Positions 1,047-18,432 of a DNA stretch of 21,191 nt are shown here, in pieces. Positions within the stretch are counted from its first letter, which is position 1. The number at the start of each line of letters is the position of its first letter. The position numbers and the translations under genes are program-made. The notes under the pieces are model-generated. The model saw only the letters and a list, made by a program, of their open reading frames with translations, was not told the origin of the DNA and ran no database searches. Origin of the DNA: a virus; the IMG/VR virus record IMGVR_UViG_3300001419_000070, positions 1 to 21,191 of that record, one strand, 5' to 3'.

Positions 1047-4000
1047 GTCAAAAAGTAGTTAAACGCTATTGGAAGACCAGTAATGCCTCCCTTGAAGTTC
1101 ATCTTAGCATTGACATTGATTGTTGCGCCTGTTGTTGTTGTAATCTGGTTGGAATTAATGAATATAAATCCAGCCGTAACACTATTTACGTTTAGCGACG
1201 CACCACCACCACCAATTTGTGAACTGATGTATGCCTTAATTGCTCTCTGGGTAGGTACAATGCTATCCGAATCAGCAGTAAAGAATGGATCTGTACTAAA
1301 TTCCGTAATACTTGCGGAATTTCCGCCCAATGTAACTTCACCTAATGAAAGTTCCTGTAAACCAGAAATGTTAAACGCATCAGCATTAAGTGTAGCAACA
1401 CCAGTTGACTGTTCAATGCTGAATAAATCACCTACTCTAAAGTTACCATCCTGGTCTGTTGATGTAAAGAACACTCTACCACCATTTGATTCCTTTGTTT
1501 CGTTTGCCTGATTTGGAATCTGTGTTGGAATTCCTGGATAATTTGTTTCGGTAAAACTACCGGTTCCAATATCAAGGAAGTCGTGTCCTGTCAATCTAAC
1601 CTGAGAGTAACGTATTCTACTTGTTATTGTTGTGCCATCAGGTGGGCTATCAAACACCGTTACGTCTGGTGATACCTGCAAGAATGCAGTGTATGCACCA
1701 TCATACTCACCAAGGAATGTTAATACCTGTACCAGTTTAAATACTCTATTCGGTAAGTGACTAAACACTACATTTGATCCAACGGCTGGTCTTTTTGTTA
1801 ATCTTCTCACGGCAATAAATTGTCCGCTCTGGAAGAAATCAGCGTATCCATCCCCACTGTCTATATCAGCACTGGCACTATCAAATGCACTTCCTCTATT
1901 TACGAATGATGGATTAGCCAATACGCCATTTCCTGTTCTAACGCTTGTTGGTGCCTCAAATGTATTGTTAGGATCCGTAATTGTTATCGTTGGTGCGCCT
2001 CCGGTATACCCTGATCCAGGTTCAGTAAGTCTAATTGCAAAGATTTTTTCATCTGCAACAAAAGCTCGTGCTTCTGTCGTAGCACCTGTTCTTGTATCAC
2101 TAGCAATGTTTACGGATGTTCTACCTATTGAAACAAATCTACCAACTTGATCCGGATTACCAAACGCACTTGCTTGGAATCCGTTTGCCGCTGTGCTCAT
2201 TGTTCTAGCAGTCCATGTAATACCATCCGGTGATGTTGCACCGTTGTTAGTTGCGCTCACTGCAAGGAATACACCCTGTCCATATTCAACATGCTGCCAA
2301 GCCTGTGTTGATGGTAAAGTGGTCTCAGTCCAGTTAGCACCTCCGTTGATTGAGTAGGCTGCTAATGTTCCGTTTGAGGAAGATACAGCAACGAATCTAT
2401 TGTTACCCCATGTAACGCTGCCCCACTGTGAAGAACTTAAACCAGTTCCAGCGGTCCAGTTATCGCCATCATCTGCTGAATATGCTACAGCATTTGTGTT
2501 GGATACTGCTATCCAAACACCTCCGCCGTATGCAACATCTACCCAAGTAGTAGAACTTGGAAGATTTGCTGTGGTTGCTGACCAAGTAACGCCACCATCT
2601 GTTGTGATTGCTGCTTGGTTAGAGCCAGATTTTACTGCCATCCACTTGCCATCACCGTAGCCTAATCCTGTCCATGAACCAGTTGAAGGCAAATTACCTC
2701 CTGCTGTCCATGTTGCGCCGCCATCTTCTGAGAACGCAGTATCATCAACTCCCGCTCCTCCCGCTATGGCAATTATTCTTGCTGCGTTTGGTTTTGCGGT
2801 TCCTGCCGTGCTAGTAAATGATCCAGCACCCGTTGCAACGAATGTTGTTCCTGCAACAATTGAGCTTGAACCAAAGGTTAACCATGGTGAATCACCCGTT
2901 GTTACAATCGTATATGATCTTCCAGTTACAAAATTTCCAGCAGTTTCTATTGCTGTTAATCTACCTCCGGCTATGGCTGTCCATGTTGTTGATACAGGAA
3001 GTGTAGTAACCGCAGTCCATGAATCTGCATCATCACTATAATTTACCGTGTTACCTGAAGCACTCGGAAGTGCCACAAAGTAACCACCGTGTCCTACACC
3101 TTCAAAGTCAAATGCCTGTATTTCACCGTTGCTAGAGTTTACGGCTGTGATAGTTATAACAATGTCATTTGTGGTATTATTTCCATTTAAATTAGATCCT
3201 TGTATAGTAATTGTATCTAATCTTGCATAACCAGTACCACCCTGATCCAATCTAACAAGGTATTTTGTGCCTTTCTTTGTAATATCAAACGTTGCACCAG
3301 TTCCTGAACCACTAGTTGAATCCTGTGTTGTATTTTCAAAACTCTCATACACTCCACTGTATGTTACATCGCTCCATGTAGTGGTCGTAGAAAGTGTTTT
3401 TGCATCTGAACTATAAGGAGGAGCAGTGAATGAAATTCTCGGTTCGATTGTGTATGTTGTTGATGCATCCGGAGAAACAATTGTAGTTCCTGCAACAATG
3501 TGATCCCATCCACTAGAACCATCTGATTCCTTAATAACAGTAGCAATCTTAGTTCCTGAATTGTATGTATTAATAATACCATACTGTCCAACCCCAGTTC
3601 CTCCAGTTAGATAAACTTTCATTCCTGGATATGCACTTGAAGTGTTTGCGTCTGTTGCAGCAATAGTAATTTGGGTAGCAGTTCCTCCTTGTGCTGTGTT
3701 TGATGATGTAACATAGCCAAAGCCGCCAAAATTACCATCTGCTTCTGGTGCAGTTGTTGAATCGTCAACATTGTCAAGCAATCTTACATTAAATACTGCA
3801 TCATCACGGAATTCCTTGTCCTGTTCCGCAACAAATCCACTTCCTGGACCAAACACACTAAACACTGCTTCTGTGTATTCTATACCAGCATTGTCATATT
3901 CAAATTGATATATTTCCTGAGCATTGTCAGTGAACACACTTCCCACAGTTGCTTCATATTGGAATTTATTATCTACTGTACCAGTACCAGGTGTTTCGGT

Positions 4001-7000
4001 TGAATCAAACCCTTCAGCAACAGAACCAAAGTCACCGTATGAGTTGTTACCGTTGGTTCCTCTAATTCTTCCACCTTCTGTTGCCAGATAACCAATGTGT
4101 GAGTAGTATGTAAACACTGATACAAGCTCTGCTCTACCGTTGTTTGCTACCCAAGCGCCGATACCATCACTAATAACCTGTGTAAAGTCATTTGATACGA
4201 TCGAATCGTTACCGCCATTGTGTAGTGCACCGTCAATTTTTTGACCTATTGCAGCATTACCAAATGTGGTATTGTTCTGTACGTATGGTGAACGTGCAAT
4301 AATCCATGTTCTAAAGTCATCTGGTCCCCAACCTGGATCCAACGAACAGTATGCACCCGCTGAAACTCTTGAAGTTCCGTATTCGTTTTCAGGTAATAGA
4401 TCACCGTTCAATCCGTCCATAGTCTGGTTTCTAATACCCGTTCCGTTTCTTAAGTAGTAGAAATCTTCTTCCTGTGAACCAAGCACTGCATTTGCATAGT
4501 ATCTTGCTACGTATCTTGATCTATAGTTTGAAGTCCATTGCAGATCCCATTTGAGAGCATCGATATATGTGTCAACGTCTCTAGCACATAATGCTTCATT
4601 ATAAACAAGTTCAACACCCATGCTTCCGCTTGCAGTTGTTAATGTAACTGCACTGGTAGCATATCTAGTGGTACCTATTTTGAAAGTGGTTGAACTTACA
4701 ACATCCTGCACATAATAAGTTGTATCCGCTGTAATTCCACCAAACGTTGTACCTGTGAATTTAATTGCTGCATTTCTAACTAACCAACTAGTGTCTGCAA
4801 TTGTGATCACATCAGTTGAGGCAGTGGTATCTGTTGCTGTGTCCTTAAAAGTGTCATCGATGTATGCTGCTAGTTCAGCCTTAATGAATGCTCTATTTTC
4901 CTCAAGTTTTAACCTTGCCCAATCTCTTACACGCAGTTCAGTTTGACACACCTCACCTTCATCAGTTGCACTGAAGAATATAGTGTCAAGTTTATCCATT
5001 AGTAATGCTAATCTCGCTGCGGCCGTTGCATCACTGTTTAAGTAAGTTGCAGTATCGCCAGCAATAGTTTGTGCCAAATACAGATAAGCAGCTCTAGTTG
5101 CTGCTTTCTGTCCCAGGGTGTATACATCGCTTGCTGTGCTTCTTAGATATGATAGTGCAGCAATATGTGTAGCAAAGTTCGTTGCATCACTGTTAGCAGC
5201 GGCATTTCCTAGCATGAAGTCAAACATGACCGCTTCTAGTATCAGTCTGGTGTCTCTCTTACACTTTGCATCATTATATGTTAAATTTGGATAATTGGTT
5301 GAAAGATAAGTATCTACCAATGTAACCAACGCTTCCTGCTGTGCATCAAGAGTTTCTGCAGCGGTAATCAATGCAGTTGTTGATGATACAGCATTCGTAA
5401 CTGCTGGATAATCTTCCTTAAATGCTGGTATGCTTAATCCACTTCCGTCAACAAGCGTAAATGTTGATCCGCCGAATGTTTCACTTATCGTAAAAGTGTT
5501 AGCAGCAGGTGTTGATATAATCCAGTATTTTGTATCTGTTACTAAATTCTTGTCTGTTTCCAAAGGAATAATTGCATCCCCAACCTGTAATCCATGATTA
5601 GCAGTCGTTGTTACCACATTTGAAGCAATTGTTGAAATAGTAACGTTAGGTAAATCAGCACCAGTCGAATCGCCAGCCAGTGTGTTTAATACTATTTGAA
5701 AATTGTCCTCAACAAAAGTTGCTGCTGTTGCTCCAGCATCTGCATTTTTGTACTGCGGTATTCCTACCTGTAATGCACTTACTGTGCTGTTTCTTGTTAC
5801 AGAGCTGAGTATTGTTTTTAAATATCCATATGCAGCAATTGTTTGTGCTACTGTTGCTTCTGATAAAGCTCTAACACTGCTTGTTCCATCCCAATATGCC
5901 TTTGCAGCATTTAGAGTCTGATAAAATCCGCCATATGTTAGATCATAACTTAGTGCATCAACAATATATCCAACATCCTGTCTACATTTTGTCTTACTGT
6001 ATTTCAAATCAGGATAGTTGTTCGTAATGTATTGGATTACTTCTTCCTGGAAGAATTTTTTATTTTCTGTTATATTCTTTCTTGCAGTTCCATAACCTGC
6101 CAGATATGAACTATTGTACCCAACCGGATCAGTCAAATTAGTAGTATGTTTTGTTCCAAGCCTAAAGTCAACCTGTTCCTTCATTACATCAACTAATTTG
6201 CTTGTTAATGCAGGAGTATCCGCGTCATCAGCCACAGGCCATGTTTGATCCTGTGCTGTTGTATTTCCAGTTGACGGTGTAATAGATGTTCCTGAAACTA
6301 CATTATCAATAATACCACTTAGGTGCTTGAACGTATCAACAGTGTAGAAAGAATCACTTATATCTGTATTTCTATCTGATGCTGCTGCTGCTCTTACATT
6401 CGTAGAACGAACTTCGTCACCGAGAATACAAGTTTCTGCTGGAACAATAATAGGAAGAACTTCCTTGTACTGTCCTGCACTTACCTTAATTAATACATTA
6501 GGAACTACTCTTTCTGGAATAGCACTTGTATCTCCTGCGGTAATTGTATCTGTTACAATGCCCAATAATGAAGTAATTGTTGCATAAACTCCAGTTTCTG
6601 TTGTGTAATCTGTGTCAATGTATTGTGCTGCAACTGCTGTACTGTCACTTGCATCTTGATATGCTACTGCTGGTGCTTCATTGTCTAAAACATTACCTAT
6701 GATTGTTAGCAGATAAGCGTATGCTGCTACTGATTGTTGAGCTTCATTGTTTAAACCCGACCCATAAACTCTGTCTTCAGATGCATCTGAAAATTCTCCA
6801 TCCGCACTAAATCCTTGAACAAATGAAAGTGCTGCTGCTCTAGTTTTTAGATTTCCGCCATGGCCTATATCCCAAATTAATCTGTCGATGATGAATCCAA
6901 CATCTCTTTCACATTTGTATTCATCATAATCAAAGCCTATCCAGATAGGATCAGTTCCGCTGGAAATCTGTGCTTCAATCCAACTTGAAGTTTCTCGCTG

Positions 7001-8776
7001 TAGGAACACTCTATTTCTTTCAAGTAAATATTGTGCGTTAGGATTTCGTGGTCCTTTTTCTACCTGTTCACATGCATATCTAATAGTAGCAAAAGGTTTA
7101 TCAAGTGTTGTGCCATGAATTGGTGCGGGCAAATCTGTTCCGCTGGGCGCAACGTAGTAAACTTGATCAATTTTACCAATAGTTCTCCATTCTGGTAGTG
7201 TGCCATCCGATACTAAAACTTGTCCTTCTTGGCCGATGGGTAATCTTGCCGGTCCTGAACCTGAATAGTAAACTAAATCACCTGTGGTTGTTAAAACTGA
7301 AGTATCACTACCAATTGTAAGAACATTCCAATAGGTACCTGATGTATCTTGATCTGGTCTTGAATTTGCTGCTCCGCCACCTTCTGGACCTATAGTAGAT
7401 CCGTCATCACCTTCAGATCTATGATTGTTAATACAGATGTATGCGTTGCTTCCAAATCTTACAGCATCTCCTAAAACATATTCATAGTCGTCCTGCCACT
7501 CACCCTGCCAATTTATACCGCTGTTTAATTTATCCCAGTAAGAAGCATTAGGTGGTAATGCTGCTACGGTTGCTGACATATTTCCTGTTGCCGTAGTAGG
7601 AGTAAAAACTGTTCCACCTGGTAGAGTTGAAATCGTAAAGGTAGTTCCAGTTACAATTGTTTTGACATAATAAGTTGCACCTTCTGCCACTCCACCGAAA
7701 GACGTTGCACCAAATCTTATTGCCAAGTTTGGCTCAAGATTTCCTGTGTTTGCTGTTGTGAACGTTGTTGCACCAGCGTCAGTAGCCGAAATAGTAATTC
7801 CTTGGCTAGCACTATCTGTGATGGCTCTGTATGTATAACCATTTAGTCTTACAACATCACCAATCTTGTATGAAGTTGTTATGCTCCAATCAGATTGAAA
7901 ATTTAAATTTTGTGCTAATAGATCCCAATCAGTCTGTCCTGATGCAGTTGGGATTGTTCCTGTGTGAACAGTTTTTGCAACGTATTGGTTACCACCATAA
8001 ACAACTACGTCACCCGCTTGATATTCTGTTGAAATGTTGTGTATGTTTTCAAATTCAAAACCTTCTACAAAATCATCCCAGTAACCGCTGTTAACATCCG
8101 AAGTAAAATCTGATCCTGATGTATGGCTCTGTCCTTCTTTGACAATCCATAACCCTGGTCCACTCTTTACAACATCATTTACTTTGTATCTAGTTGATGG
8201 TGCCCAATCGCCTTTAAATTCTAAACCTTGATTAAACTCATCCCAGTATGAACTCTGATTTTCTAGACCATCACTAGCAGTTGCGGATGATGTATGTCCG
8301 GTGTTTGCAACATAAGTATATCCACCGTACTTAACTAGATCATATTTTTTATACCTAGTTGTTGTAGCCCAATCAGCCTTCCATTCTAATCCTTCTGCAA
8401 ATAAATCCCATTTTGCCTGATCTGCTTCTAATCCTGTAGAGTTTTCTAAACCAGCACTGCCAGAACCAACGGATGAATTTGACGTGTGTGCTGTATTTGC
8501 AATGTATAATGCTCCGCCATATTTTACTATGTCATTGATCTTATAAAATTTGCTTGTGGTCCAGTCTCCGGTCCATTCCTGGCCATCACTCATCTGATTC
8601 CATTTAGTTGGAGAATAGTTTAGATCAGTATAAAAATCTGTATCGGATGTGTGTCCTGCGGCAGCAATGTATGTTCTTCCGCCATATCTTACAACATCGT
8701 CAATATAATAAGTTGTAGAAGCAGCCCAATCGCCCTTCCATACAAATCTAATTCTACCAAGTTTAAATTCTGCCAT
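1043..8776 (-). CDS. Giant modular adhesin/fibre-like virion protein (2577 aa)
   Basis: The largest gene here and the paralogue of the 1866-residue gene immediately upstream. Domains seen by reading: seven N-terminal repeats of the type W..(T/S)..Y..GD.V.YGG..Y....HTS (about 11-484), resembling ChtBD3/CBM5-12 carbohydrate-binding modules; a linker; a pectin-lyase-like entry (YVAPSGTDLP at 541-550, KPFATIRYACE, then GQYKEVLPIIVPAETCILG at 768-786); four helical units each with a K/L-C-x-R/Q-D motif (Cys622, Cys931, Cys1172, Cys1397); a beta-helix core beginning GQKIDGALHNGGN (1511-1523); an Asp-box propeller-like stretch with six S-x-D-x-G-x-x-W-like boxes (1913-2188); and a C-terminal domain (about 2385-2520) with STDQDGNFRVGDLF and IVPTQRAIKAYI. 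Three beta modules and one further module interrupt these domains and are listed separately. By inference it is a virion fibre or adhesin binding surface glycans. No catalytic site was recognised. The start has only a weak ribosome site (CGGAAA). Confidence 0.9.
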   Translation of the reverse strand: MAEFKLGRIRFVWKGDWAASTTYYIDDVVRYGGRTYIAAAGHTSDTDFYTDLNYSPTKWNQMSDGQEWTGDWTTSKFYKINDIVKYGGALYIANTAHTSNSSVGSGSAGLENSTGLEADQAKWDLFAEGLEWKADWATTTRYKKYDLVKYGGYTYVANTGHTSSATASDGLENQSSYWDEFNQGLEFKGDWAPSTRYKVNDVVKSGPGLWIVKEGQSHTSGSDFTSDVNSGYWDDFVEGFEFENIHNISTEYQAGDVVVYGGNQYVAKTVHTGTIPTASGQTDWDLLAQNLNFQSDWSITTSYKIGDVVRLNGYTYRAITDSASQGITISATDAGATTFTTANTGNLEPNLAIRFGATSFGGVAEGATYYVKTIVTGTTFTISTLPGGTVFTPTTATGNMSATVAALPPNASYWDKLNSGINWQGEWQDDYEYVLGDAVRFGSNAYICINNHRSEGDDGSTIGPEGGGAANSRPDQDTSGTYWNVLTIGSDTSVLTTTGDLVYYSGSGPARLPIGQEGQVLVSDGTLPEWRTIGKIDQVYYVAPSGTDLPAPIHGTTLDKPFATIRYACEQVEKGPRNPNAQYLLERNRVFLQRETSSWIEAQISSGTDPIWIGFDYDEYKCERDVGFIIDRLIWDIGHGGNLKTRAAALSFVQGFSADGEFSDASEDRVYGSGLNNEAQQSVAAYAYLLTIIGNVLDNEAPAVAYQDASDSTAVAAQYIDTDYTTETGVYATITSLLGIVTDTITAGDTSAIPERVVPNVLIKVSAGQYKEVLPIIVPAETCILGDEVRSTNVRAAAASDRNTDISDSFYTVDTFKHLSGIIDNVVSGTSITPSTGNTTAQDQTWPVADDADTPALTSKLVDVMKEQVDFRLGTKHTTNLTDPVGYNSSYLAGYGTARKNITENKKFFQEEVIQYITNNYPDLKYSKTKCRQDVGYIVDALSYDLTYGGFYQTLNAAKAYWDGTSSVRALSEATVAQTIAAYGYLKTILSSVTRNSTVSALQVGIPQYKNADAGATAATFVEDNFQIVLNTLAGDSTGADLPNVTISTIASNVVTTTANHGLQVGDAIIPLETDKNLVTDTKYWIISTPAANTFTISETFGGSTFTLVDGSGLSIPAFKEDYPAVTNAVSSTTALITAAETLDAQQEALVTLVDTYLSTNYPNLTYNDAKCKRDTRLILEAVMFDFMLGNAAANSDATNFATHIAALSYLRSTASDVYTLGQKAATRAAYLYLAQTIAGDTATYLNSDATAAARLALLMDKLDTIFFSATDEGEVCQTELRVRDWARLKLEENRAFIKAELAAYIDDTFKDTATDTTASTDVITIADTSWLVRNAAIKFTGTTFGGITADTTYYVQDVVSSTTFKIGTTRYATSAVTLTTASGSMGVELVYNEALCARDVDTYIDALKWDLQWTSNYRSRYVARYYANAVLGSQEEDFYYLRNGTGIRNQTMDGLNGDLLPENEYGTSRVSAGAYCSLDPGWGPDDFRTWIIARSPYVQNNTTFGNAAIGQKIDGALHNGGNDSIVSNDFTQVISDGIGAWVANNGRAELVSVFTYYSHIGYLATEGGRIRGTNGNNSYGDFGSVAEGFDSTETPGTGTVDNKFQYEATVGSVFTDNAQEIYQFEYDNAGIEYTEAVFSVFGPGSGFVAEQDKEFRDDAVFNVRLLDNVDDSTTAPEADGNFGGFGYVTSSNTAQGGTATQITIAATDANTSSAYPGMKVYLTGGTGVGQYGIINTYNSGTKIATVIKESDGSSGWDHIVAGTTIVSPDASTTYTIEPRISFTAPPYSSDAKTLSTTTTWSDVTYSGVYESFENTTQDSTSGSGTGATFDITKKGTKYLVRLDQGGTGYARLDTITIQGSNLNGNNTTNDIVITITAVNSSNGEIQAFDFEGVGHGGYFVALPSASGNTVNYSDDADSWTAVTTLPVSTTWTAIAGGRLTAIETAGNFVTGRSYTIVTTGDSPWLTFGSSSIVAGTTFVATGAGSFTSTAGTAKPNAARIIAIAGGAGVDDTAFSEDGGATWTAGGNLPSTGSWTGLGYGDGKWMAVKSGSNQAAITTDGGVTWSATTANLPSSTTWVDVAYGGGVWIAVSNTNAVAYSADDGDNWTAGTGLSSSQWGSVTWGNNRFVAVSSSNGTLAAYSINGGANWTETTLPSTQAWQHVEYGQGVFLAVSATNNGATSPDGITWTARTMSTAANGFQASAFGNPDQVGRFVSIGRTSVNIASDTRTGATTEARAFVADEKIFAIRLTEPGSGYTGGAPTITITDPNNTFEAPTSVRTGNGVLANPSFVNRGSAFDSASADIDSGDGYADFFQSGQFIAVRRLTKRPAVGSNVVFSHLPNRVFKLVQVLTFLGEYDGAYTAFLQVSPDVTVFDSPPDGTTITSRIRYSQVRLTGHDFLDIGTGSFTETNYPGIPTQIPNQANETKESNGGRVFFTSTDQDGNFRVGDLFSIEQSTGVATLNADAFNISGLQELSLGEVTLGGNSASITEFSTDPFFTADSDSIVPTQRAIKAYISSQIGGGGASLNVNSVTAGFIFINSNQITTTTGATINVNAKMNFKGGITGLPIAFNYFLT
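2102..3094 (-). repeat. Asp-box beta-propeller-like region of the 2577-aa protein
   Basis: Residues about 1895-2225. The boxes are YSDDADSW, SEDGGATW, TTDGGVTW, SADDGDNW, SINGGANW and SPDGITW, spaced about 42 residues apart apart from the first gap, which contains module B. Between them lie strands of the type W..V.YG.G.FVAV. This is the BNR/Asp-box pattern known from sialidase-like propellers. No sialidase catalytic residues were identified. Confidence 0.75.
2789..2959 (-). repeat. Module B, copy in the 2577-aa propeller region
   Basis: Residues about 1940-1996: GNFVTGRSYTIVTTGDSPW, then LTFGSS, VAGTTFVATGAG and AGTAKP. It splits a propeller strand (TAIAGG before, RIIAIAGGAG after) that is uninterrupted in the 1866-residue paralogue (CLAGGGTGNYRFVAI). 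It matches residues 155-202 of the 229-residue protein. Confidence 0.7.
3140..3325 (-). repeat. Module C, copy in the 2577-aa protein
   Basis: Residues about 1818-1879: GTGATFDITKKGTKYLVRL, then GGTGYARLDTITIQGSNL and TNDIVITIT. The same order of ATFDI, GxGY, D-T-I-T-I-x-G and NDI-x-I-T occurs in the 1866-residue paralogue and in the 467-residue protein. Confidence 0.6.
4457..4930 (-). repeat. Helical Cys-Arg-Asp unit 4 (interrupted)
   Basis: Residues about 1283-1440. It has a LKLEENRAFIKAELAAYI helix, then after module A copy 3 NEALCARDVDTYIDALKWDL (Cys1397), and YYANAVLGSQEEDFYYLRN. This last part aligns with the only helical unit of the 1866-residue paralogue (ARYFRNLVLG, MFYLRD), so unit 4 is the ancestral position and units 1-3 the extra copies. 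Confidence 0.65.
4607..4840 (-). repeat. Beta module A, copy 3, inside helical unit 4
   Basis: Residues about 1313-1390. It reads AIKFTGTTFGGI, TTYYV, STTFKI, then VTLTTASGSMGVEL. It falls between the leading helix of unit 4 (AELAAYIDDTF) and its LVYNEALCARD motif, where units 2 and 3 have only a few residues (NYPDLKY, NYPNLTY), so it reads as an insertion. Confidence 0.65.
4997..5368 (-). repeat. Helical Cys-Arg-Asp unit 3
   Basis: Residues about 1137-1260. It reads YPNLTYNDAKCKRDTRLILE (Cys1172), AVMFDFMLGN, AALSYLRS, then AAYLYLAQTI. Gly-Gly-Asn is changed to Gly-Asn here, otherwise the unit follows the others. Confidence 0.6.
5426..5647 (-). repeat. Beta module A, copy 2
   Basis: Residues about 1044-1117 of the 2577-residue protein: HGLQVGDAIIP, then TKYWI, NTFTISETFGGSTFTL and GSGLSIP. 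It is the most divergent of the three copies but keeps the order AI(x), Y-Y/W-x, TFTI, GG..FTL. It follows helical unit 2. Confidence 0.55.
5657..6085 (-). repeat. Helical Cys-Arg-Asp unit 2
   Basis: Residues about 898-1040. It reads TENKKFFQEEVIQYI, then YPDLKYSKTKCRQDVGYIVD (Cys931), ALSYDL, GG, and an AAYGYLKTIL helix. This copy is closest to unit 1 in spacing. Confidence 0.65.
6542..7030 (-). repeat. Helical Cys-Arg-Asp unit 1
   Basis: Residues about 583-745 of the 2577-residue protein. It has an ERNRVF helix, then YKCERDVGFIIDRLIWD (Cys622), GGN, AALSF and an AAYAYLLTI helix. It lies between two halves of the pectin-lyase-like entry that are nearly adjacent in the 1866-residue paralogue, so it looks inserted or duplicated there. 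Confidence 0.65.
7325..8746 (-). repeat. Seven ChtBD3-like modules in the 2577-aa protein
   Basis: Residues about 11-484 hold seven copies of a 45-60 residue unit, starting near residues 11, 68, 132, 187, 242, 293 and 423. Each has an opening Trp/Phe, an ST.Y or equivalent, GDVV or similar, YGG..Y, usually HTS, and a closing W(D/N). The sixth copy is split by an extra module (residues 322-405). Similarity to chitin-binding type 3 modules is by pattern only. Confidence 0.75.
7562..7813 (-). repeat. Beta module A, copy 1, inside adhesin repeat 6
   Basis: Residues about 322-405 of the 2577-residue protein. Key features are an AIRFGATSFGG segment, then TYYV and TTFTI, then an FTPTTATGNM ending. 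It sits between GYTYRAI and PPNASYWDKL, which together would make one ordinary carbohydrate-binding-like unit. The other six repeats lack it. Confidence 0.65.
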
Positions 8777-8819
8777 TGTCGTTTCCGTTTGTTATGTTAT
8801 ATTTATCCTTGTTGTTCAT
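8763..8819 (-). CDS. Possible 18-aa leader peptide overlapping the 2577-aa start
   Basis: A short reading frame, MNNKDKYNITNGNDNGRI then TAA, starts at ATG 8819. It has a better ribosome site (AAAGGAG, 6 bases before the ATG) than the giant gene it precedes. It runs through the start codon of the 2577-residue gene in another frame and stops 11 bases after that gene begins. That arrangement would allow translational coupling. It may equally be chance, since the ATAAATA box lies inside it and a transcript started there would lack its start. No similar protein is known to me. Confidence 0.3.
   Translation of the reverse strand: MNNKDKYNITNGNDNGRI
8800..8806 (-). promoter_or_regulatory. Late-promoter-like box ATAAATA before the 2577-aa gene
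   Basis: The minus strand reads GGATAAATATAAC 23 bases before the ATG at 8776, matching the T4-type late promoter core. It would give the giant adhesin its own late transcript with a very short leader. Evidence is the consensus and its position between genes. Confidence 0.45.
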
Positions 8820-8825
8820 TGCCCA

Positions 8826-8832
8826 CTCCTTT
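8826..8832 (-). promoter_or_regulatory. Strong ribosome site with no long gene behind it
   Basis: AAAGGAG lies over the stop of the 1866-residue gene (TAA 8831-8833). The next ATG, 6 bases on, opens only the 18-codon frame. The giant 2577-residue gene starts 50 bases further with a much weaker site. This contrast is what supports the leader peptide. Confidence 0.4.
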
Positions 8833-11800
8833 AGTCATTGAAGGAATCAAAGAACATGGTTTGTGCTAGCATGCTTCCTGCAATTCCTATCTGATCTCCG
8901 CTGTAGTCCACTTTTACAGGGAATACTACTTCTAAACTCGCTACGTTATCAATTAGGTTAGGTCCAACCTTAACGGTACCAGCAATAAAGCTCGCCGTAA
9001 GCAAATCAGAACCACCAACATTTAATCTATTCTGTAAGTAAGCAGCAATCGCTCTCTGTGTTGGTACCACATTGTTAGAATCCTGAACAAACAGTGGATC
9101 CGTTGAAAATTCTCTAACTACCGTTCCTGATCCACCTAACCTTACTCCTCCTAGTGCTAGTTCAGTTAAACCAGCAAGATCAAAGAAATCAGCACTAATA
9201 GTTACGATACCCGTTGCCTGTTCAACAGCAAATAGTTCACCACATCTAAAATTACCTGACTGGTCAGTTGATGTATAGAATACTCTACCACCGTTTAGTT
9301 CTTGTACTTCATTTTCAGGTGCATAAACAAATGTTGCAGCACTGTACAGAGTTGGATAGTTTGTTTCAACAAAGTTACCAGTTCCAACATCCAAGAAATC
9401 GTGTCCTGTAATCCTAACCTGTGAATATCTTTCTCTAATTTCTACCTGTGACGTATGCTCTAGAAAATCGTTCAATGTCAATCTAGGAGTTACTCTAAAG
9501 GTAGCAGTTAGTGTTTCATCAATCTCCTCACTTAGAGGAGTAATTGTTTGTACTGTATAGAAATCTGTAGCACCTCTAAATCTAAATTGTGTTCCAGGAC
9601 CAGGCAATAGTTCTAGTCCACTAATTGTTACAAATTGATCATTTGGAATAACGTCAGCAAATCCATCTCCTAGTAGAGTTACTATGGTTGAACTAGTTCG
9701 ATAGCCACTGCCTCTGTTAATCCAACTAGGCTGTGCTAGTACAGCATCGCCCATTCTCATTTCAACATATGCCGTATCAGTAACATTTGGATCTACAATT
9801 TGTATCGTGGCAATACCATCATAACCGGAACCGGGCTCCCACAGTCTTATGTGATCAATGCTTCCGGTTTCAACTATACATCTTCCTTGCGCTCTAACGC
9901 CAGTCAATACCTTTGTTGCATGGTCAAGTCCGGATGCAACTCCAATCCACATTCCTGTGCTGTTTGACTGTGTGGTCGAGTCTCCTAGAGTAATGTCTGG
10001 ATTACCAAATCCTATTGCTCTCCAATTAGCATCCTGTGCCAATGTTCTTTCAGTCCATAGTATTCCACTTTCTGATGTTGCGGCAAAACTAGTAGGACTT
10101 CCTACTTCGTCTCCTCCTACAACTCTTCCTCCAGTATCGCCAACTGCAAAGAAAACTCCCTGACCGTATCTTATCTTTCTCCAATTGTGTGCTGTTGATC
10201 CATCCTGAGTAGGAAGGTATCCTCCAGATATCCAATCTTCACCATCAAAACTAATTGCTATTTCTCCCGTTCCTGATACAGCAATAAATTTGTTCTGACC
10301 ATATGTGATGGATCTCCAATCTTTTACCGTACTGTCTGCAATTACGTCCATGATGTATGAATTCCACGTCCATGCACCAGTTGTGCTATTAAATTCTCCA
10401 ACCGCAGCAAAGTTTCCTGAATTGGCTATGGCAACAAATTTTCCCTTACCATATGCTACGTCAACCCATTCATTAAAAGTTGAATCTCCTATGTCAGGTA
10501 GGGTAGTTTCTGCCCACGTGTTTCCACCGTCTGTTGAATAGACAGACTTGTCAGCATCACCTGCAACTGCTAAAACTACTTCAGAACCGGTTCCATTATT
10601 GCCTTTTCCAAACACCACTCCATTCCATAGAGCAGTATCAGGTAGTGTTCTGTCTAACCATGTTTTACCGTCCGCGCTTATTGCGGCCTTGTTACTGTTA
10701 TTTCTAATTGCAACAAATCTATAATTACCAGTACCGCCACCTGCTAGACAACTCCAATTTCCACTTGTGGGTAGTGTTCCCACAGTCCATGAACTTCCGT
10801 CTTCTGAGTATGATACGTTCGAACTATTTAGAGCTGTGGCTACAAATCTGCCACTATTTGCTGTACCTATGTGCCTGAATGAAGTAATTGAATTGGTGCT
10901 ATCATCACTGGTTGATGTCACTGTAATTATTATATCGTGTTCATCTTCTGTGCCGCCGACTAAATTTCCTTTAATTGTAATTTCCTGTCCTACTTCATAG
11001 CCTGCGCCTGCTTCTCTTATGCTAACTTCATATGTCCTGCTGTTCTTGATAACGTCAAATGTTGCTGTAACTGGGGTAACATTGATAGTTTCACCGGTCC
11101 CAGCATCTCCCGAAACACCATTAAATGATTCCCTAGTTTCGTTATATGCAACGGCAGCCCAATCATCACTCTGTCCAATATTGACTATAGATGAAGTAAA
11201 TCCTGGATGTGAAAATATTGGTCTTGGTTCAAATCTGTATGTGTTGTCAGTAAACAGTGCTGGCTGAATGGGAGTTCCTGGAATAACATGATCCCATCCT
11301 GGTTGATCATCACTTTCTCTTGAAACAGTCACAACTTTTGTTGCAGGATTTAGAGAAGTTACGTATCCGTATTGACCTGCTCCTTGTCCTGATGTTATAA
11401 TTAATCTTAATCCTAGTGCTTGTGCTTCGGTTGTATCATCGTTGGTTGCGATTGTTAATGACGTGGTATTTCCTGATTGTGCGTTATTACCCTGTTGAAA
11501 ATATCCTAGTCCGCCTTCTGTTGCACCTGCATCTCCAGGCGCATTCTTAATTAATGGCTGGAACACAGCATTGTCACGGAATTCTTCTTGTACTACTTCT
11601 GCTCCAACACCCGCACCTTGGAATGTGTAGTCAGCACGCGAATAGTTTTCTCCAGCATGCCTGTATTCTAATATGAGTATCTCATCATTAACTTCTCCAG
11701 CAAATGCACTTTCTACTATTGCTTGTCCTGTGCGATTGTTTACTTCTGCAAATTTAGGAGTTTCGGTAGGGTCGTTACCATCAGCAACCGCACCAAAGTC

Positions 11801-14431
11801 ACCGTATGATGAGTTACCGTTTGTTGCACGTAGAACTCCACCTTTTTCAGCAAACATTCCAATCTGTGCGTAATATGTAAACACAGACACAAGTTCTGCT
11901 CTACCATTATTAAGTGCCCATGCACCTATACCATCGGAAATTACCTGTGTAAAGTCATTTGATACCAGTGATTTATTTCCACCATTGTGCAGTGCTCCAT
12001 CGATCTTCTGCCCAACACAGTTCGTTCCAAAGGTTGTTACGTTCTGTATGTATGGTGATCTATTTACAATCCAGCATGCTTCGTGGGCAGGACCCCAACC
12101 TGGATCCAACGACATGAATGCTCCGCCTGTTGGTCTTCTATATAGTTCAAAAACGTTTGGCGGATTAAGTGTTCCATCTAGATCTTTTGTTGTTAGATTT
12201 CTTACACCTGTGGTATCTCTTAGATAGAACATGTCGTCATTGGCACTTCCTAATACTAGATTTCTAAAATATCTGGCTTCTTGTATCGAATGAAAATTAC
12301 CTGGAAATTTTAGATCCTTAATAAATGCATCTATTAATCTTTTAACTGTTGTTCTAATTTTATTAAAATCTGTGCTGTATCCGGGATGAGTTACGGGAAG
12401 CCATGCTGCTATTTCATCAGCAAGAAATTGTTTGTTTGCTAGCAATCTTGCTTCAACGTTATCATATGATGTAGCAGTCTGTGTATTTGATCCAGTAACC
12501 GAAACATCGCTACCTGTGCTTAATAGATAAAAATCTATGTATTGTTTGACATTATCTATCAAATTAGAAATATCCTGTGATACTAATTCTGGTATAATTG
12601 GTTCAAATGGATCGTCCGGATTTGCAGGAACTCTTGGTACCTGTATTATTTCTATATCAGTAACCTGCTGGGTGGTATTACCTGAAGTTGGAGAAATAGG
12701 CGTAAGATTAATTATGGAGTCAATTAAACTGTTTATCCTATCCATCGCATCCTTTTGATACGCTGCATCTAGGGTGCTGTCTGGTAAATTTGGTTTAACT
12801 GTGCATGATCTTAATTCGCTGCCTTCGATCGCTGTACCTGCAGGTACAACTATTGGAAGTATTTCTCTGTATTCTCCTGTTGCTACCTTGATTGTGTGCA
12901 ATGCACTATCATCACCCAACGCTTGAATCGTTTCGCAGGCGTGTTTGATTGTTCTAAATGGTTTGTTTGGATCCTTGCCCCTATTTGGATCATCATCTGA
13001 ATCTGAAGCAATTCTTTCGTCAGCACTCACGTAGCGTACCTTGTTTATTAGTTCTCTTCTTCTGTAACTTAGGGTCGCTTGGTCATTTACTTCTAGTGTT
13101 TGGTCTGATACTCCAATGGGTACCGTGGTTGGTCCTAGAGTACTTCCGTCTCCCGCAAGTTCTCTGCTCAAACCAAAAGTTAATAGATCGCCTCGTGTGC
13201 TTAGAGCAACATTTGGTCCAGCAAGTAATACTATGTCCCAATAAAAGAATCCATTTCCATTATCTCCAGGAAAATTTTCACTGGATGATGTGTGTTCTAT
13301 GTTTGATCTATAGACAGTTCCTCTGTAAATTATGATATCACCGACCGCATAATTCGTGTTAATTAACCAACTATTTTTCCAATCATCTCCAGGTATCACT
13401 ACTTCCCAGTTTGTTGCATCTAAATAATCTAGAGAACTTCCGTCTTCGGAACTTAATTCCGTATCAATCAATGCTACATAGAGATATCCGCCTCTTCTTA
13501 CAACATCACCTGATTTGTAATCAGTCTGTGCATTCCAGTTACCCTTATAATCATGTCCTTTGACAATTAATGACCAATTAGTATCTAGAGTGGGTTGGTT
13601 GTATAGGCTCAATCCTGGAGAAACATTATTGTTGTTGGTGTTTGCTCTAAACAAGTATCCACCATGTTTAACAACGTCACCAACTGCATAATAGTCTGCA
13701 GAACTCCATTCTCCATAAAAGTTGTTTCCTGGAAATTCTGTTTCAAAATTTGCAGCCTCTATGTTTGCTCCTGCTGTGTGACCAGTAATTACTCGTAAAA
13801 TTGTTCCTCCATATTTTACAAGGTCATTTTTTCTATATCTAGTATTGTTGGTCCAATCTCCTACAAACTGAATTCCTTCATAATAAATTTCCCAAAGTTC
13901 GCCGGTACTGTCATCTAATAAATCGTAGTTTCCAATCTCGGTTCCTTGATCTAGAGTTCCTGACGTGTGTTCTGCCACACACTTGTAGACTATTCCGTTA
14001 TATTTTACAAGGTCTCCCACTCCATATCTAGTGCTTGGTTGCCAGTCCTGTGTCCAACCAATAGTAGTTGCATATTCTGTAAAACTACCTGCATTGTCTA
14101 AGAATGTACTTCCGGAAGTATTGGATGTAACTGTTAAGTAGACAACTCCTCCATAAAGAACTATGTCTCCAGGAGCATATAATGTTGATTGCTGCCATTG
14201 ACCTCTCCATGCGTAACCATCCGTCATCTTGGTCCATGCCGGAGTTGGTTCTGAATCTCCTGGATTTGCAAGAAAATCTAGATCCGTTTGAAACGCACTA
14301 GAAGTGTGTTGTCTTATACAAACCCACGTTGATCCACCATATCTAACAACGTCATCCTTGTTGTACGAAATTGAAGTGTTCCACTCGTTTCTCCAAGTAT
14401 ATCTTAATCTGCTTATTCTAAATTCTGCCAT
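8831..14431 (-). CDS. Giant modular adhesin/fibre-like virion protein (1866 aa)
   Basis: Starts at ATG 14431, 5 bases after the previous stop; the ribosome site is CGGA, part of the previous gene's GGATAA end. Read domains: seven N-terminal carbohydrate-binding-like units (about 11-400); a linker (STRGDLLTFG); a pectin-lyase-like entry with KPFRTIKHACE (490-500) and GEYREILPIVVPAGTAIEG (519-537); one helical unit (about 656-735) lacking the Cys of its paralogue; a core beginning GQKIDGALHNGGN (807-819) that is very close to the paralogue for some 80 residues; GQYGYV and a GWDHVIPGT motif; module C (about 1108-1172); an Asp-box propeller-like stretch (about 1190-1500); and a C-terminal domain (about 1665-1800) with STDQSGNFRCGELF and VVPTQRAIAAYL. 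The inferred role is a virion fibre or adhesin. It probably represents the simpler, older layout, since the 2577-residue sister has all of this plus extra modules. Confidence 0.9.
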   Translation of the reverse strand: MAEFRISRLRYTWRNEWNTSISYNKDDVVRYGGSTWVCIRQHTSSAFQTDLDFLANPGDSEPTPAWTKMTDGYAWRGQWQQSTLYAPGDIVLYGGVVYLTVTSNTSGSTFLDNAGSFTEYATTIGWTQDWQPSTRYGVGDLVKYNGIVYKCVAEHTSGTLDQGTEIGNYDLLDDSTGELWEIYYEGIQFVGDWTNNTRYRKNDLVKYGGTILRVITGHTAGANIEAANFETEFPGNNFYGEWSSADYYAVGDVVKHGGYLFRANTNNNNVSPGLSLYNQPTLDTNWSLIVKGHDYKGNWNAQTDYKSGDVVRRGGYLYVALIDTELSSEDGSSLDYLDATNWEVVIPGDDWKNSWLINTNYAVGDIIIYRGTVYRSNIEHTSSSENFPGDNGNGFFYWDIVLLAGPNVALSTRGDLLTFGLSRELAGDGSTLGPTTVPIGVSDQTLEVNDQATLSYRRRELINKVRYVSADERIASDSDDDPNRGKDPNKPFRTIKHACETIQALGDDSALHTIKVATGEYREILPIVVPAGTAIEGSELRSCTVKPNLPDSTLDAAYQKDAMDRINSLIDSIINLTPISPTSGNTTQQVTDIEIIQVPRVPANPDDPFEPIIPELVSQDISNLIDNVKQYIDFYLLSTGSDVSVTGSNTQTATSYDNVEARLLANKQFLADEIAAWLPVTHPGYSTDFNKIRTTVKRLIDAFIKDLKFPGNFHSIQEARYFRNLVLGSANDDMFYLRDTTGVRNLTTKDLDGTLNPPNVFELYRRPTGGAFMSLDPGWGPAHEACWIVNRSPYIQNVTTFGTNCVGQKIDGALHNGGNKSLVSNDFTQVISDGIGAWALNNGRAELVSVFTYYAQIGMFAEKGGVLRATNGNSSYGDFGAVADGNDPTETPKFAEVNNRTGQAIVESAFAGEVNDEILILEYRHAGENYSRADYTFQGAGVGAEVVQEEFRDNAVFQPLIKNAPGDAGATEGGLGYFQQGNNAQSGNTTSLTIATNDDTTEAQALGLRLIITSGQGAGQYGYVTSLNPATKVVTVSRESDDQPGWDHVIPGTPIQPALFTDNTYRFEPRPIFSHPGFTSSIVNIGQSDDWAAVAYNETRESFNGVSGDAGTGETINVTPVTATFDVIKNSRTYEVSIREAGAGYEVGQEITIKGNLVGGTEDEHDIIITVTSTSDDSTNSITSFRHIGTANSGRFVATALNSSNVSYSEDGSSWTVGTLPTSGNWSCLAGGGTGNYRFVAIRNNSNKAAISADGKTWLDRTLPDTALWNGVVFGKGNNGTGSEVVLAVAGDADKSVYSTDGGNTWAETTLPDIGDSTFNEWVDVAYGKGKFVAIANSGNFAAVGEFNSTTGAWTWNSYIMDVIADSTVKDWRSITYGQNKFIAVSGTGEIAISFDGEDWISGGYLPTQDGSTAHNWRKIRYGQGVFFAVGDTGGRVVGGDEVGSPTSFAATSESGILWTERTLAQDANWRAIGFGNPDITLGDSTTQSNSTGMWIGVASGLDHATKVLTGVRAQGRCIVETGSIDHIRLWEPGSGYDGIATIQIVDPNVTDTAYVEMRMGDAVLAQPSWINRGSGYRTSSTIVTLLGDGFADVIPNDQFVTISGLELLPGPGTQFRFRGATDFYTVQTITPLSEEIDETLTATFRVTPRLTLNDFLEHTSQVEIRERYSQVRITGHDFLDVGTGNFVETNYPTLYSAATFVYAPENEVQELNGGRVFYTSTDQSGNFRCGELFAVEQATGIVTISADFFDLAGLTELALGGVRLGGSGTVVREFSTDPLFVQDSNNVVPTQRAIAAYLQNRLNVGGSDLLTASFIAGTVKVGPNLIDNVASLEVVFPVKVDYSGDQIGIAGSMLAQTMFFDSFND
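9932..10864 (-). repeat. Asp-box beta-propeller-like region of the 1866-aa protein
   Basis: Residues about 1190-1500. The boxes are SEDGSSW, SADGKTW, STDGGNTW, SFDGEDW and SESGILW, with one degenerate blade near 1340-1356 (GAWTW). Strands of the type W..V.YG.GKFVAIA lie between them. Unlike its sister, the region is not interrupted by module B. Confidence 0.7.
10916..11110 (-). repeat. Module C, copy in the 1866-aa protein
   Basis: Residues about 1108-1172: VTATFDVIKNSRTYEVSI, AGAGYEVGQEITIKGNLVGG, then HDIIITVT. It lies at the same place as in the 2577-residue sister, so it predates their duplication. Confidence 0.6.
13232..14401 (-). repeat. Seven ChtBD3-like modules in the 1866-aa protein
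   Basis: Residues about 11-400 hold seven units starting near 11, 74, 127, 188, 239, 296 and 351, each with W.....(T/S).Y..GD.V.Y.G..Y and a closing Trp. Four have HTS or HTA. The equal count of seven in both giants suggests the array predates the gene duplication or is structurally fixed. Confidence 0.75.
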
Positions 14432-14436
14432 TTTTT

Positions 14437-15137: not shown

Positions 15138-15144
15138 ACTATAC

Positions 15145-16212
15145 TTATCCTAACATTAATGCAAATGACGCTGCAATGTCATTCGCTACAATTTCCGAAA
15201 CAGCACCAGTTGCACCTGCGGGTGACGCCCATGCTGCTCCATCCCAAACTTCAATTGCTTTTGAAGTTGTATTATATCTTGTCATTCCAAGAACTGCATA
15301 TGCACTTGGTCTCTGTGCATCTGTGCCTCTTGGAGGAACAAAACCGTTTGTTGTATCAATTTTAAAATAACCTGTACCTGTTTGCAATATTTGTGTGATT
15401 GCATTATTGGAAACATTTTCGATTACGTTATCAGTTATTTTAAAATTACCTAATCGCACACCACCGGATCCGTTACCATCGATGTACAAATCTAATCCTG
15501 TTGTTGTTGTAATTTCATTATCACGGAACATTAAATCCCCAACATCCATTGTGCTTAATGTTAGGTTATCTGCAACTACATTATTAACAAAAAGTTCTTT
15601 CCATCTAAAAGAAGCACTTCCTAAATTATAAGTACTATCTGTTTCTGGAATTAAATCACTCTTGATTGCTGCATTAATCTGAATAGTGTCCGTTAGTGCA
15701 TCACCAATGGTTATGTTGCCACCTATCGTAACATTACCATCTGCGTTTATATTTCCACTCACATAAAGATCGCCATCTATGTTAGTTGAAGCAAATACTT
15801 CAAGTGTTCCAGTCCCGTTAGGACGTAGTTCAAGTGCTGCATTAGAGTTTGTTGTAGAAATTGTATTTCCTTCAATTTCTAGATCATCTACCTGTAATTT
15901 TGAATGATAGATTACAGGATCTGCTCCAGAAGGAACAAAACTTATAGTATCTAAATCACTTGAAATTGTGTTTCCGGTAATGTGTAAATTACCAATGTCT
16001 AATTGATTATCAACAGTAAGTGTTACTGTTCTCGTAGTTCCTGTGACGTGTAAATCGGTTGATGGCGCAGAGTTATTGATGCCCACTCTAGCGTTGTTAA
16101 CATCCAGATATAAAATGTCAGGGTCACTTGCTCCATTTCTAAAAGTCAAATCCACGCCATTGCGTATTAGATTTGCCTTTAAGAGCGGCCCAGATATACG
16201 ACCAATTGCCAT
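15145..16212 (-). CDS. Fibre-like virion protein (355 aa), paralogue of the 467-aa protein
   Basis: Starts at ATG 16212 with AAGGAG 6 bases upstream. The N-terminus, IGRISGPLLKANLIRNGVDL, matches the start of the 467-residue protein. The middle consists of short beta repeats of the kind seen in trimeric fibres: LELRPNGTGTLEVFASTN (127-144), DGDLYVSGNINADGN, and TYNLGSASFRWKELFVNN (194-211). The last third has the FVPPRGTDAQRP...MTRYNTTSKAIEVWDGAAW pattern (291-328), common in marine phage fibres, and a tail ending AASFALMLG. No enzyme motif is seen. By inference it is an oligomeric fibre or neck/baseplate appendage. It appears to have its own late promoter and a 90-base leader, which sets it apart from the tightly packed genes before it. 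Confidence 0.87.
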   Translation of the reverse strand: MAIGRISGPLLKANLIRNGVDLTFRNGASDPDILYLDVNNARVGINNSAPSTDLHVTGTTRTVTLTVDNQLDIGNLHITGNTISSDLDTISFVPSGADPVIYHSKLQVDDLEIEGNTISTTNSNAALELRPNGTGTLEVFASTNIDGDLYVSGNINADGNVTIGGNITIGDALTDTIQINAAIKSDLIPETDSTYNLGSASFRWKELFVNNVVADNLTLSTMDVGDLMFRDNEITTTTGLDLYIDGNGSGGVRLGNFKITDNVIENVSNNAITQILQTGTGYFKIDTTNGFVPPRGTDAQRPSAYAVLGMTRYNTTSKAIEVWDGAAWASPAGATGAVSEIVANDIAASFALMLG

Positions 16213-16282
16213 CTGCTCTCCTTATACACGGGGATCCTGTCCCTCCAACTACCTTACATTGCGAGTTGACCACAGTAAAAGA

Positions 16283-16302
16283 TTAACGTTGGTCTACGTT
16301 AA
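16283..16302 (-). promoter_or_regulatory. Perfect 7-bp inverted repeat just after the late-promoter box
   Basis: TTAACGT, a 6-base loop and ACGTTAA (arms 16283-16289 and 16296-16302). On the minus-strand transcript an extra G-U pair could close it. It lies at the predicted 5' end of the leader of the 355-residue gene and has no U-run, so it is not an intrinsic terminator. It could be a 5' stabilising hairpin or a protein site. Confidence 0.45.
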
Positions 16303-16308
16303 CAATAG

Positions 16309-16315
16309 TATTTAG
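16309..16315 (-). promoter_or_regulatory. Late-promoter-like box CTAAATA in the largest intergenic gap
   Basis: The minus strand reads GGCTAAATACTATTG, matching the CTAAATA late motif described for marine T4-like cyanophages and T4's TATAAATACT. It lies in the 116-base gap between the 467- and 355-residue genes, about 96 bases before the next ATG. An 8-bp direct repeat, TTGGCTAA, covers both the previous stop and the start of the box. Confidence 0.5.
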
Positions 16316-16328
16316 CCAAAAGGATAAA

Positions 16329-17732
16329 TTAGCCAAGTATAAGGCTGTATGCGTCGCCCAGATCTTCCATTAATTCTACATCTACTTCAGCACCACCACC
16401 CGTTGATAGTTCGTAACCGTCATCGATCTGCGCTCCTACAGTGAGTGTGATATCATTAGTTGGTGTTGCGCCGCCTACAAAATTAGTACCAAGTATGGTA
16501 ATTGTATCACCTGTAAGGTATTCCTGTCCTTGGTTTGTTATGGTTACACTGCTGATTGCTCCAGAAACTATTGTTATTGTAAATCTAGCGTTTTGTCCGG
16601 TAGCACTTGTTGTGCCCGAAAGATTTGTCCTTGTTTGATCTGCTAAACCCGTAACAACGCCCACAGCAGTAACAACGTTAATTTTTCCTGAAAATGACTC
16701 CAGATATTCTTCATCTGTATTCCATCTAGTATCACCCAGTTCTGGTCTAATTGGAGTTCCTAAGTTCTGTGGCCTAGTAGAATTATCTCCTGCAGGTAGA
16801 ACAAAGCCATTGTCTCCCATAAATCTCAAGTAACCTATTCCTGTACTAGCAAACCTAAGCGGAGTGTCAACTAGATTTGTAATATTGTTTGTTTCCCATT
16901 TAGTATTTTCTATGTAAACAATTCCTGTATCTGGACTTAACAATAAATCATCGTTTGATTGTGTTGCAAAAATTTGATTATTTTCTCCGTCTAAGTGCAT
17001 TTGATCACTTACAAAAACATTCAGCGGAGTAACCCTATCAGCATTTCTTAGATCATCGGTGACATAGGCTTGATTCCATCTCCTTGGACTACTGTCTAAT
17101 TGATCTCTCCCCAAATCCCAAAGATTGTCATCACCTGGCAGTATAGATTGTGTAAAGTCAGGCACAATTTCTACGGTATCTCCTTGACCCGTATCAGGGT
17201 CATAAAGTTCATCACCAACAATTAAATCTCCTAATTTTGTTAGATTACCATCTATTGAAATATTACCAGTGACTCCTAGATTACCATAGATGTTTGTTGA
17301 ACTTAAAACTTCAACAGTGCCTGTTCCGCTAGGCTTTAGTTCTATAGTTTGATTTGATGTTGTTCCTGATATGGTATTATCATTAAAATCTAGATCATCA
17401 GAACGCATTCTTTGTAAATTTACATAACTTCCTGCAGTCTGCGGCATAATGTTTATTGGTCCGAGCACAGTAGTGATTGTTCCATCTGCTCTTGGAATAA
17501 TATTATCTATCCTAGCCGAAGTATCGACAATTAAATTTGTTGTTCTAGCATCATTATTAATATCCAAATCAAATGATGGAGTATCATCCTTTATACCTAT
17601 CCTTCCATTATCAACGTCGAAAAATAGTATAGGAGTAGAGTCAAAAGTTGTGTTTGAAAATTTTAGATTAACACCGTCACGGTGTAGATTTGCGTTTAGT
17701 AACGGTCCGCTAATTCGCCCCAATTGCGCCAT
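16329..17732 (-). CDS. Fibre-like virion protein (467 aa) with inserted module C
   Basis: Starts at ATG 17732 after AGGAGGT at 5 bases, the best ribosome site in the window. The first 60 residues (LGRISGPLLNANLHRDGVNL, then FFDVDNGRIGI) parallel the 355-residue protein, as do IELKPSGTGTVEVLSSTN (130-147) and the tail DAYSLILG. A VLPAGDNSTRP...TRWNT pattern (311-339) corresponds to the RP/RYNT motif of its paralogue. Between residues about 363 and 435 it carries module C (NARFTITI, GQEYLTGDTITILG, TPTNDITLTV), which the 355-residue protein lacks. By inference it is a beta-rich oligomeric fibre or appendage protein. Its stop is followed by the late-promoter-like box of the next gene. Confidence 0.87.
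   Translation of the reverse strand: MAQLGRISGPLLNANLHRDGVNLKFSNTTFDSTPILFFDVDNGRIGIKDDTPSFDLDINNDARTTNLIVDTSARIDNIIPRADGTITTVLGPINIMPQTAGSYVNLQRMRSDDLDFNDNTISGTTSNQTIELKPSGTGTVEVLSSTNIYGNLGVTGNISIDGNLTKLGDLIVGDELYDPDTGQGDTVEIVPDFTQSILPGDDNLWDLGRDQLDSSPRRWNQAYVTDDLRNADRVTPLNVFVSDQMHLDGENNQIFATQSNDDLLLSPDTGIVYIENTKWETNNITNLVDTPLRFASTGIGYLRFMGDNGFVLPAGDNSTRPQNLGTPIRPELGDTRWNTDEEYLESFSGKINVVTAVGVVTGLADQTRTNLSGTTSATGQNARFTITIVSGAISSVTITNQGQEYLTGDTITILGTNFVGGATPTNDITLTVGAQIDDGYELSTGGGAEVDVELMEDLGDAYSLILG
16428..16646 (-). repeat. Module C, copy in the 467-aa protein
   Basis: Residues about 363-435: TSATGQNARFTITI, SSVTITNQGQEYLTGDTITI, then TPTNDITLTV. Absent from the 355-residue paralogue, whose corresponding segment runs directly from the Trp-ending motif to the C-terminal tail. 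Confidence 0.6.
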
Positions 17733-17742
17733 GTGTTACCTC

Positions 17743-18432
17743 CTAGTTTGCAAATCCGAAGAATACCGTCACATATTTTGATAGAGGAACTGCTGATGTA
17801 AATGATAGATACCAACCAGTAGGTCTTGCTCTACCCGTTGTTCCACCGCCTGCACCAGTTGCCGTAAATACCGTTCCAACAGTGTTGGCACTCGCACCGA
17901 TCAGAGTAAAATCAGTATCTCCAACATTTGTTATAATATATTCGGTTGAGGTTACAAAATTAGTTGTTAAAACTTCCTCTCCAGTATCAAATGAACTGGG
18001 GTTTTGAACTAATGTAAAGTTAGTTGTTGGTATCTGCATGACATTTTCAACCAAGACAATAATATTGTTTGCACTAGCAGGAACTTTTTGTAGTGGACCA
18101 AATATAGTGTCTGATGCATCTCCTGGTCCGAGAGTTTCAATCGTTACCGCTGCTGAAGCAGGAGCCCTTACAACTTCCCAGTTGCCGCCAACGTATGCTT
18201 CAATGCCAATAGGTTGTCCTGTCACTGCATCGTTATCGGTATTGTATCTTAGATATCCATTTCCGTCGGTTGGATGCCTAACACCAGTGAGCTGTGGACG
18301 CTGAGCTGTTGTTCCTTTTGGAATCATTACTGCTCCATTAAAATCCATAACTGCCCTTCCATATGGATTTATCCTAACGGTATTATCGTTTGGGCTGTAC
18401 TTGGATACGTATTGTGATTTTAAAAATCTCAT
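17743..18432 (-). CDS. Virion structural protein (229 aa) with inserted module B
   Basis: Starts at ATG 18432 with AAGGATG 5 bases upstream. Residues 1-90 (MRFLKSQYVSKYSPNDNTVR, then MIPKGTTAQRPQLTG, YLRYNTDNDA and IEAYVGGNWEVV) have the RP/RYNT/Trp pattern of the fibre proteins nearby. Residues 100-150 continue with beta strands (NNIIVLVENVMQIPTTNFTL). Residues about 155-202 are module B, with GDTDFTLIGAS and VGTVFTATGAG. The protein ends RPTGWYLSFTSAVPLSKYV, VTVFFGF. Reading across the module, NFTLVQNPSS joins well to PTGWYLSF, so the module looks inserted into a loop. The role is a beta-rich virion component by context; nothing enzymatic is visible. Confidence 0.85.
   Translation of the reverse strand: MRFLKSQYVSKYSPNDNTVRINPYGRAVMDFNGAVMIPKGTTAQRPQLTGVRHPTDGNGYLRYNTDNDAVTGQPIGIEAYVGGNWEVVRAPASAAVTIETLGPGDASDTIFGPLQKVPASANNIIVLVENVMQIPTTNFTLVQNPSSFDTGEEVLTTNFVTSTEYIITNVGDTDFTLIGASANTVGTVFTATGAGGGTTGRARPTGWYLSFTSAVPLSKYVTVFFGFAN
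17827..17970 (-). repeat. Module B, copy in the 229-aa protein
   Basis: Residues about 155-202: TTNFVTSTEYIITNVGDTDF, then TLIGASANTVGTVFTATGAG and TTGRARP. It lines up with the copy in the 2577-residue protein (NFVT, Y-x-I, GD, FxxxGxS, VGT/AGT-x-F-x-ATGAG, A-x-P). DNA identity between the copies seems low, so the shared module is old. Confidence 0.7.

Follow-up and report, generated by a model that had tools for sequence, protein, structure and literature searches.

A 47-residue domain carried in loops of apparently unrelated virion proteins of uncultivated tailed viruses

A small module of 47 residues is found in loops of about 45 kinds of protein that show no apparent relation to one another, most of them virion parts from tailed viruses known only as uncultivated. 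It is a domain undescribed in the libraries searched, and that it constitutes a distinct domain family is nearly certain. We interpret it as an accessory mini-domain for surface display or adhesion that is carried on virion proteins and putatively binds a ligand, a reading to which we assign a probability of roughly 0.5. Accessory virion domains have so far been known mainly as Ig-like or carbohydrate-binding module (CBM) folds of cultured phages. The module described here is much smaller and occurs on neck, tail-tube, tail-tip, fibre and head proteins of environmental viruses as well as on bacterial surface proteins; the annotation libraries searched do not contain it, and isolates almost never carry it.

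The starting point was a virus record of 21,191 bases (IMGVR_UViG_3300001419_000070), referred to below as the window, meaning the whole stretch of DNA that was analyzed. It encodes the end of a T4-type major capsid protein (Gp23) and a run of virion-type genes on the minus strand (Table 1). A sequence-only reading of this stretch had proposed that its 2577-residue and 229-residue proteins share a module that the 1866-residue sister of the former lacks. The proteins and the coordinates given for the two copies proved correct, and both statements were borne out by a hidden Markov model (HMM) that was built from 56 copies in other viruses and excluded the two of the window. Residues 158–198 of the 229-residue protein (E 1e-17) and 1945–1991 of the 2577-residue protein (E 1e-9) matched with the scores given in Table 1, against a top score of 14.0 among 4,000 shuffled sequences, and none of the other window proteins tested, including the sister, gave a comparable match. 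Because both carrier proteins are Gly/Thr rich, the pairwise likeness of the two copies, which are about 44–45% identical in protein, is by itself weaker evidence than the HMM.

Table 1. Features of the window that carry, lack or accompany the module. Positions are those of the window; HMM refers to the leave-out model described in the text.
Feature	Position	Strand	Evidence or remark
2577-aa tail-fibre-like protein, single module copy	1043..8776	-	phrog_9851 tail fiber, E 1e-177
Module copy, aa 1940-1996 of the 2577-aa protein, in a BNR-propeller-like blade	2789-2959	-	HMM 35.8 bits; blade aligns to the module-free sister; module proper at 2789..2944 (aa 1945-1996)
1866-aa sister protein, module-free (empty paralogue)	8831..14431	-	HMM; blade alignment
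467-aa protein	16329-17732	-	more distant second shared piece, aa 362-437
229-aa virion-type protein	17743..18432	-	C-terminal domain aa about 89-229, module in beta-hairpin turn
Module copy, aa 155-202 of the 229-aa protein	17827-17970	-	HMM 61.7 bits; AlphaFold2

Several other features of these genes were recorded. A set of five to six CBM_5_12 repeats opens each of the long fibre proteins (Pfam, E 4e-21 and 4e-36), and the two share a second piece (ATFDITKKGTKYLVRLDQGGTGYARLDTITIQGSNL..NDIVITITAV) at about residues 1827–1885 of the giant protein and 1115–1175 of the sister, which recurs in the 467-residue protein. More than 80 relatives of the 229-residue protein were found in environmental contigs, and the 50,697 deposited phage records yielded none at E 1e-3.

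As a sequence family the module is sharply delimited. Its consensus is xAGSFVxGxxYxIxxVGTTDFTxIGASANTVGVxFTATGAGSGTGTA, rich in Gly and Thr and with almost no charge. Y7, I9, G21, F31 and G37 are invariant among 127 ungapped copies; in the same set, A stands at -3 in 119 copies, G at -2 in 124, and two residues past the final glycine, G41, an A follows in 121; the residues outside these borders are unrelated. Likewise, when 72 host stretches were aligned, each representing a different site cluster, the conserved columns lay within the module only.

With the copy from the 229-residue protein as query, the module was confirmed in at least 475 environmental viral stretches, and the consensus query on viral contigs returned at least 487. 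A degenerate 9-residue pattern search, which does not rank by similarity, was also run, and at all 76 pattern loci checked the module lies within an open frame. All loci pooled give 390 domains in 320 ORFs, falling into 45 host clusters and 73 site clusters, counts that hinge on the BLAST threshold, since remote homologues may end up in separate clusters and long fibres in a common one. A survey of environmental viral proteins of this kind, which the sequence-only reading had suggested, returned what that reading would count as support: many apparently unrelated hosts, with the module at loop sites.

Searches of Pfam, NCBIfam, PHROGs and the PDB gave no match to the module. Twelve copies matched the Pfam family YjbE weakly, a match we reject as one of Gly/Thr composition that lies below the curated cut-off where this is shown. 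The motif GASANTVG is not printed anywhere in the literature searched.

Many hosts have no assignment. Among the matches listed, all 25 PHROG host families are virion parts, with 49 further families beyond these. The names of host representatives include distal tail protein (the Dit hosts, phrog_1302), head-tail adaptors Ad1 and Ad2, head closure Hc3, minor and major tail proteins, central fibre J, baseplate wedge, tail appendage, tail spikes and head protein, and Pfam matches include SU10_adaptor, Phage_connect_1 (gp6-like connector), Phage_tube_2, Phage-tail_3 and T4 gp9/10_N. Viral records carry one to nine copies, many of them a single one. A first tblastn search masked the module with its low-complexity filter, and its null result was at least partly an artefact; a filter-safe query found matches in 3 of the 50,697 deposited phage records, of which a single one, cyanophage S-TIM54, is an isolate. 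Plasmids gave no match. Within a few kb around each copy we found no neighbour gene or recombinase common to the host clusters, the best candidate being a window-type fibre gene present at 7 of 45.

Natural homologues with an empty site exist for several of the hosts. Relatives of the 229-residue protein have either a short loop (SGSLTGPGAPYADGWYLKF) in the module's place, flanked by the same two strands, or almost nothing there (DLITGNTYIRF). The T4-type gp13 proteins of cyanophages S-SKS1, P-SSM2 and DSL-LC02 are without the module, which is present in three environmental gp13 genes; one of these encodes the neck protein at L036:2716-3699, and since gp13 structures have been solved, the module site can be placed on the neck. 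Clean empty sites were also found in an Ad1 adaptor from a Desulfofustis phage and in phage CAjan's Dit, and the insertion point is a short turn in the homologues. For the giant protein, the equivalent propeller blade of the sister paralogue is empty; a search with the propeller found a single relative (L244) and, beyond the sister, no empty relative of that exact site. The earlier observation that the flanks join smoothly on removal agrees with the homologues of the 229-residue protein, which lack exactly that stretch. The module is thus removable in nature, and it withstands the check on removability that the sequence-only reading had set for itself.

Two bacterial genomes also match, in a scan crowded by unspecific pattern matches. 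Both are metagenome assemblies of betaproteobacteria, and in both the adjoining genes are bacterial. In one, the module lies within a minor pilin among a run of prepilin genes (L083:1979-2578), which we label MshP-like from its sequence as it has no NCBIfam match; only 1 of 74 genomes of its family has the module there, and the other pilin homologues have an empty site. In the other, it lies in an 1109-residue protein with a lipobox-like start (L082:2319-5645) and is retained in three species of one genus (L378–L380). No further carriers appeared in a 369-genome sample of the same bacterial class. By these features, both bacterial hosts are surface-type proteins.

Comparison of copies at the protein and codon levels points to selection on the protein. 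Over 7,324 pairs from unrelated hosts, protein identity is 0.66, whereas codon identity at the same residue is 0.352, compared to 0.329 expected from host codon use; DNA identity between unrelated hosts never exceeds 0.77, and module GC3 tracks that of the host (rho 0.85). Synonymous saturation at this level of protein identity indicates that selection acts on the protein and, with the GC3 match, that the copies are old residents. Of 120 pairs compared inside host families, 116 show stronger conservation in the module than in its flanks. Taken together, these comparisons show that the amino acids are held by purifying selection independent of the host protein, and a module whose residues stay nearly fixed while its DNA is saturated must do something definite. 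The same saturation rules out a recent DNA element. The DNA identity of the two window copies is low and neither is a recent copy of the other, as the sequence-only reading had remarked.

The window's 229-residue protein and its relative L167 are equal at all 60 residues of linker and module, with 24 synonymous codon differences, and 75–84% identical outside; compared to L164, the same protein is 84–97% identical outside and 58% over the linker and module. This contrast indicates that version swaps at one site occur. The sequence-only reading had named the exchange of surface modules between virion genes as a plausible route to capsid or fibre diversity. Strong amino-acid conservation argues against the module itself as a source of diversity; the varying feature is which version a protein carries. 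As to exchange between the 2577-residue and 229-residue proteins, two copies do lie within one window, yet they share 45% identity and both have nearer relatives elsewhere. Of 239 other copies, 235 resemble the 229-residue copy more than the giant's copy does, the best (82%) being in a head-tail adaptor of another virus; for the giant's copy, 70 of 238 others are nearer than the 229-residue copy. Residence in the same genome does not in general make copies more alike (0.58 within genomes, 0.62 between them, p 0.20). As the window copies are not mutual nearest relatives, the comparison does not support direct exchange between their genes, and we regard it as highly improbable.

AlphaFold2 gave a pLDDT of 89–96 in the blocks of the 229-residue protein that cover the module (most of residues 1–50 score below 50) and 86.5 when the module was modelled by itself. 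The module is predicted to fold alone as a strand, a short helix and a strand, with its ends joined to the host hairpin. Foldseek recovered the same piece in nine uncharacterised viral proteins from independent viral models, eight of them with TM 0.83–0.89. It returned no PDB match, and with the little power of a 49-residue query a distant known fold is possible; across family and fold comparisons we saw no resemblance to a known binding fold. The host domain of the 229-residue protein weakly resembles phage proteins of the tail-adaptor and tailspike kinds, namely the LME-1 portal-tail protein and CBA120 TSP4 (Foldseek probability 0.92 and 0.63; E 0.2–0.3).

A near-fixed amino acid sequence wherever the module sits suggests a putative surface-binding tag. 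Each module-bearing virion protein would display a small beta-rich head at the surface of the particle, and the many copies per virion in connector rings, tail tube and fibres could provide avidity for a common ligand in the water, probably polysaccharide-like or particle-associated. Such binding would keep virions near hosts, and bacterial pili and lipoproteins would employ the same tag; spread would depend on occasional recombination events that place the module in a tolerant loop, where it then stays for a long time, with no dedicated mobile element. The sharp borders, 45 host clusters, empty sites, protein-level selection, shared fold and surface-type bacterial hosts all favour this, against which some hosts are possibly not surface exposed (phrog_511, an internal virion protein). 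Adhesins normally diversify with host range, and the strong uniformity of the module is unusual for one. For surface adhesion itself as the module's function, we put the odds at about even.

That uniformity over unrelated hosts, at saturated synonymous sites, would be expected of a tag with one fixed partner, a handle for docking or assembly on a virion or host protein (a decoration protein or chaperone) or on other module copies, of which a genome may hold up to nine. We consider this rather unlikely, as no neighbour family recurs in most host clusters within the few kb around each copy, many viral records have a single copy, and the bacterial pilin and lipoprotein copies would need the same partner. 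The module's position at hairpin turns, its predicted independent folding and its composition would also suit a compact cap that protects long hairpins from proteases or stiffens them with no specific ligand; empty homologues manage without it, however, and polar T15, N25 and T34, which may be exposed, are kept over saturated divergence as a pure stabiliser need not keep them. This explanation too seems unlikely. A selfish in-frame insertion of the Rickettsia palindromic element (RPE) type, spreading as DNA and tolerated in loops, would account for in-frame copies in many unrelated genes and for several per genome. It would predict DNA-level conservation, which the codon identities and the host-like GC3 contradict, and the pattern-sampled copies all lie in open reading frames, with assigned viral hosts that are virion parts; we think it very improbable.

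If display and adhesion are indeed its role, the mini-fold might rank among the most widespread insert domains of aquatic tailed viruses, a universal tag on every class of virion part that is common to bacterial pili, recognizes a single environmental ligand and has been hidden by its near absence from cultured phages; we offer this wider view tentatively, as less likely than not. The cultured carrier S-TIM54 makes the module's role open to experiment, and the module provides an annotation handle that flags unannotated virion proteins in viral metagenomes.

Compared to known systems, the CBM_5_12 (PF02839) repeats of the same window proteins are similarly small (about 45 residues, in tail fibres) and are aromatic beta modules; kinship was rejected (no Pfam match, hhalign probability 0.4%). 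Smug et al. (2023; PMC10684548) described domain mosaicism by domain detection in representative phage proteins, and the module is likewise a fragment common to otherwise unrelated virion proteins, although no domain entry covers it and deposited phages hardly ever carry it. In evoDit proteins, CBMs are inserted in the middle of Dit (PMC9128512), much as the module is inserted within Dit relative to the empty CAjan protein; those CBMs have about 150 residues or more and known folds, whereas the module also occurs in neck, tail-tube and fibre proteins and matches no CBM by family (Pfam) or fold (Foldseek). Ig-like domains such as Hoc are promiscuous on tailed-phage virions and thought to aid adhesion (PMC10385173; Fraser 2006, cited in PMC10684548), and they resemble the module in being accessory, in occurring on several unrelated virion proteins and in differing in presence between relatives. 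An Ig-like domain, however, is a beta-sandwich of about 80–100 residues, while the module is an in-frame loop insert with one conserved sequence and a different predicted fold, and none of 58 copies compared against Pfam matched an Ig-like family. Since it fails the sequence and fold tests of both groups, we do not file the module as a member of either, though it appears to work alike.
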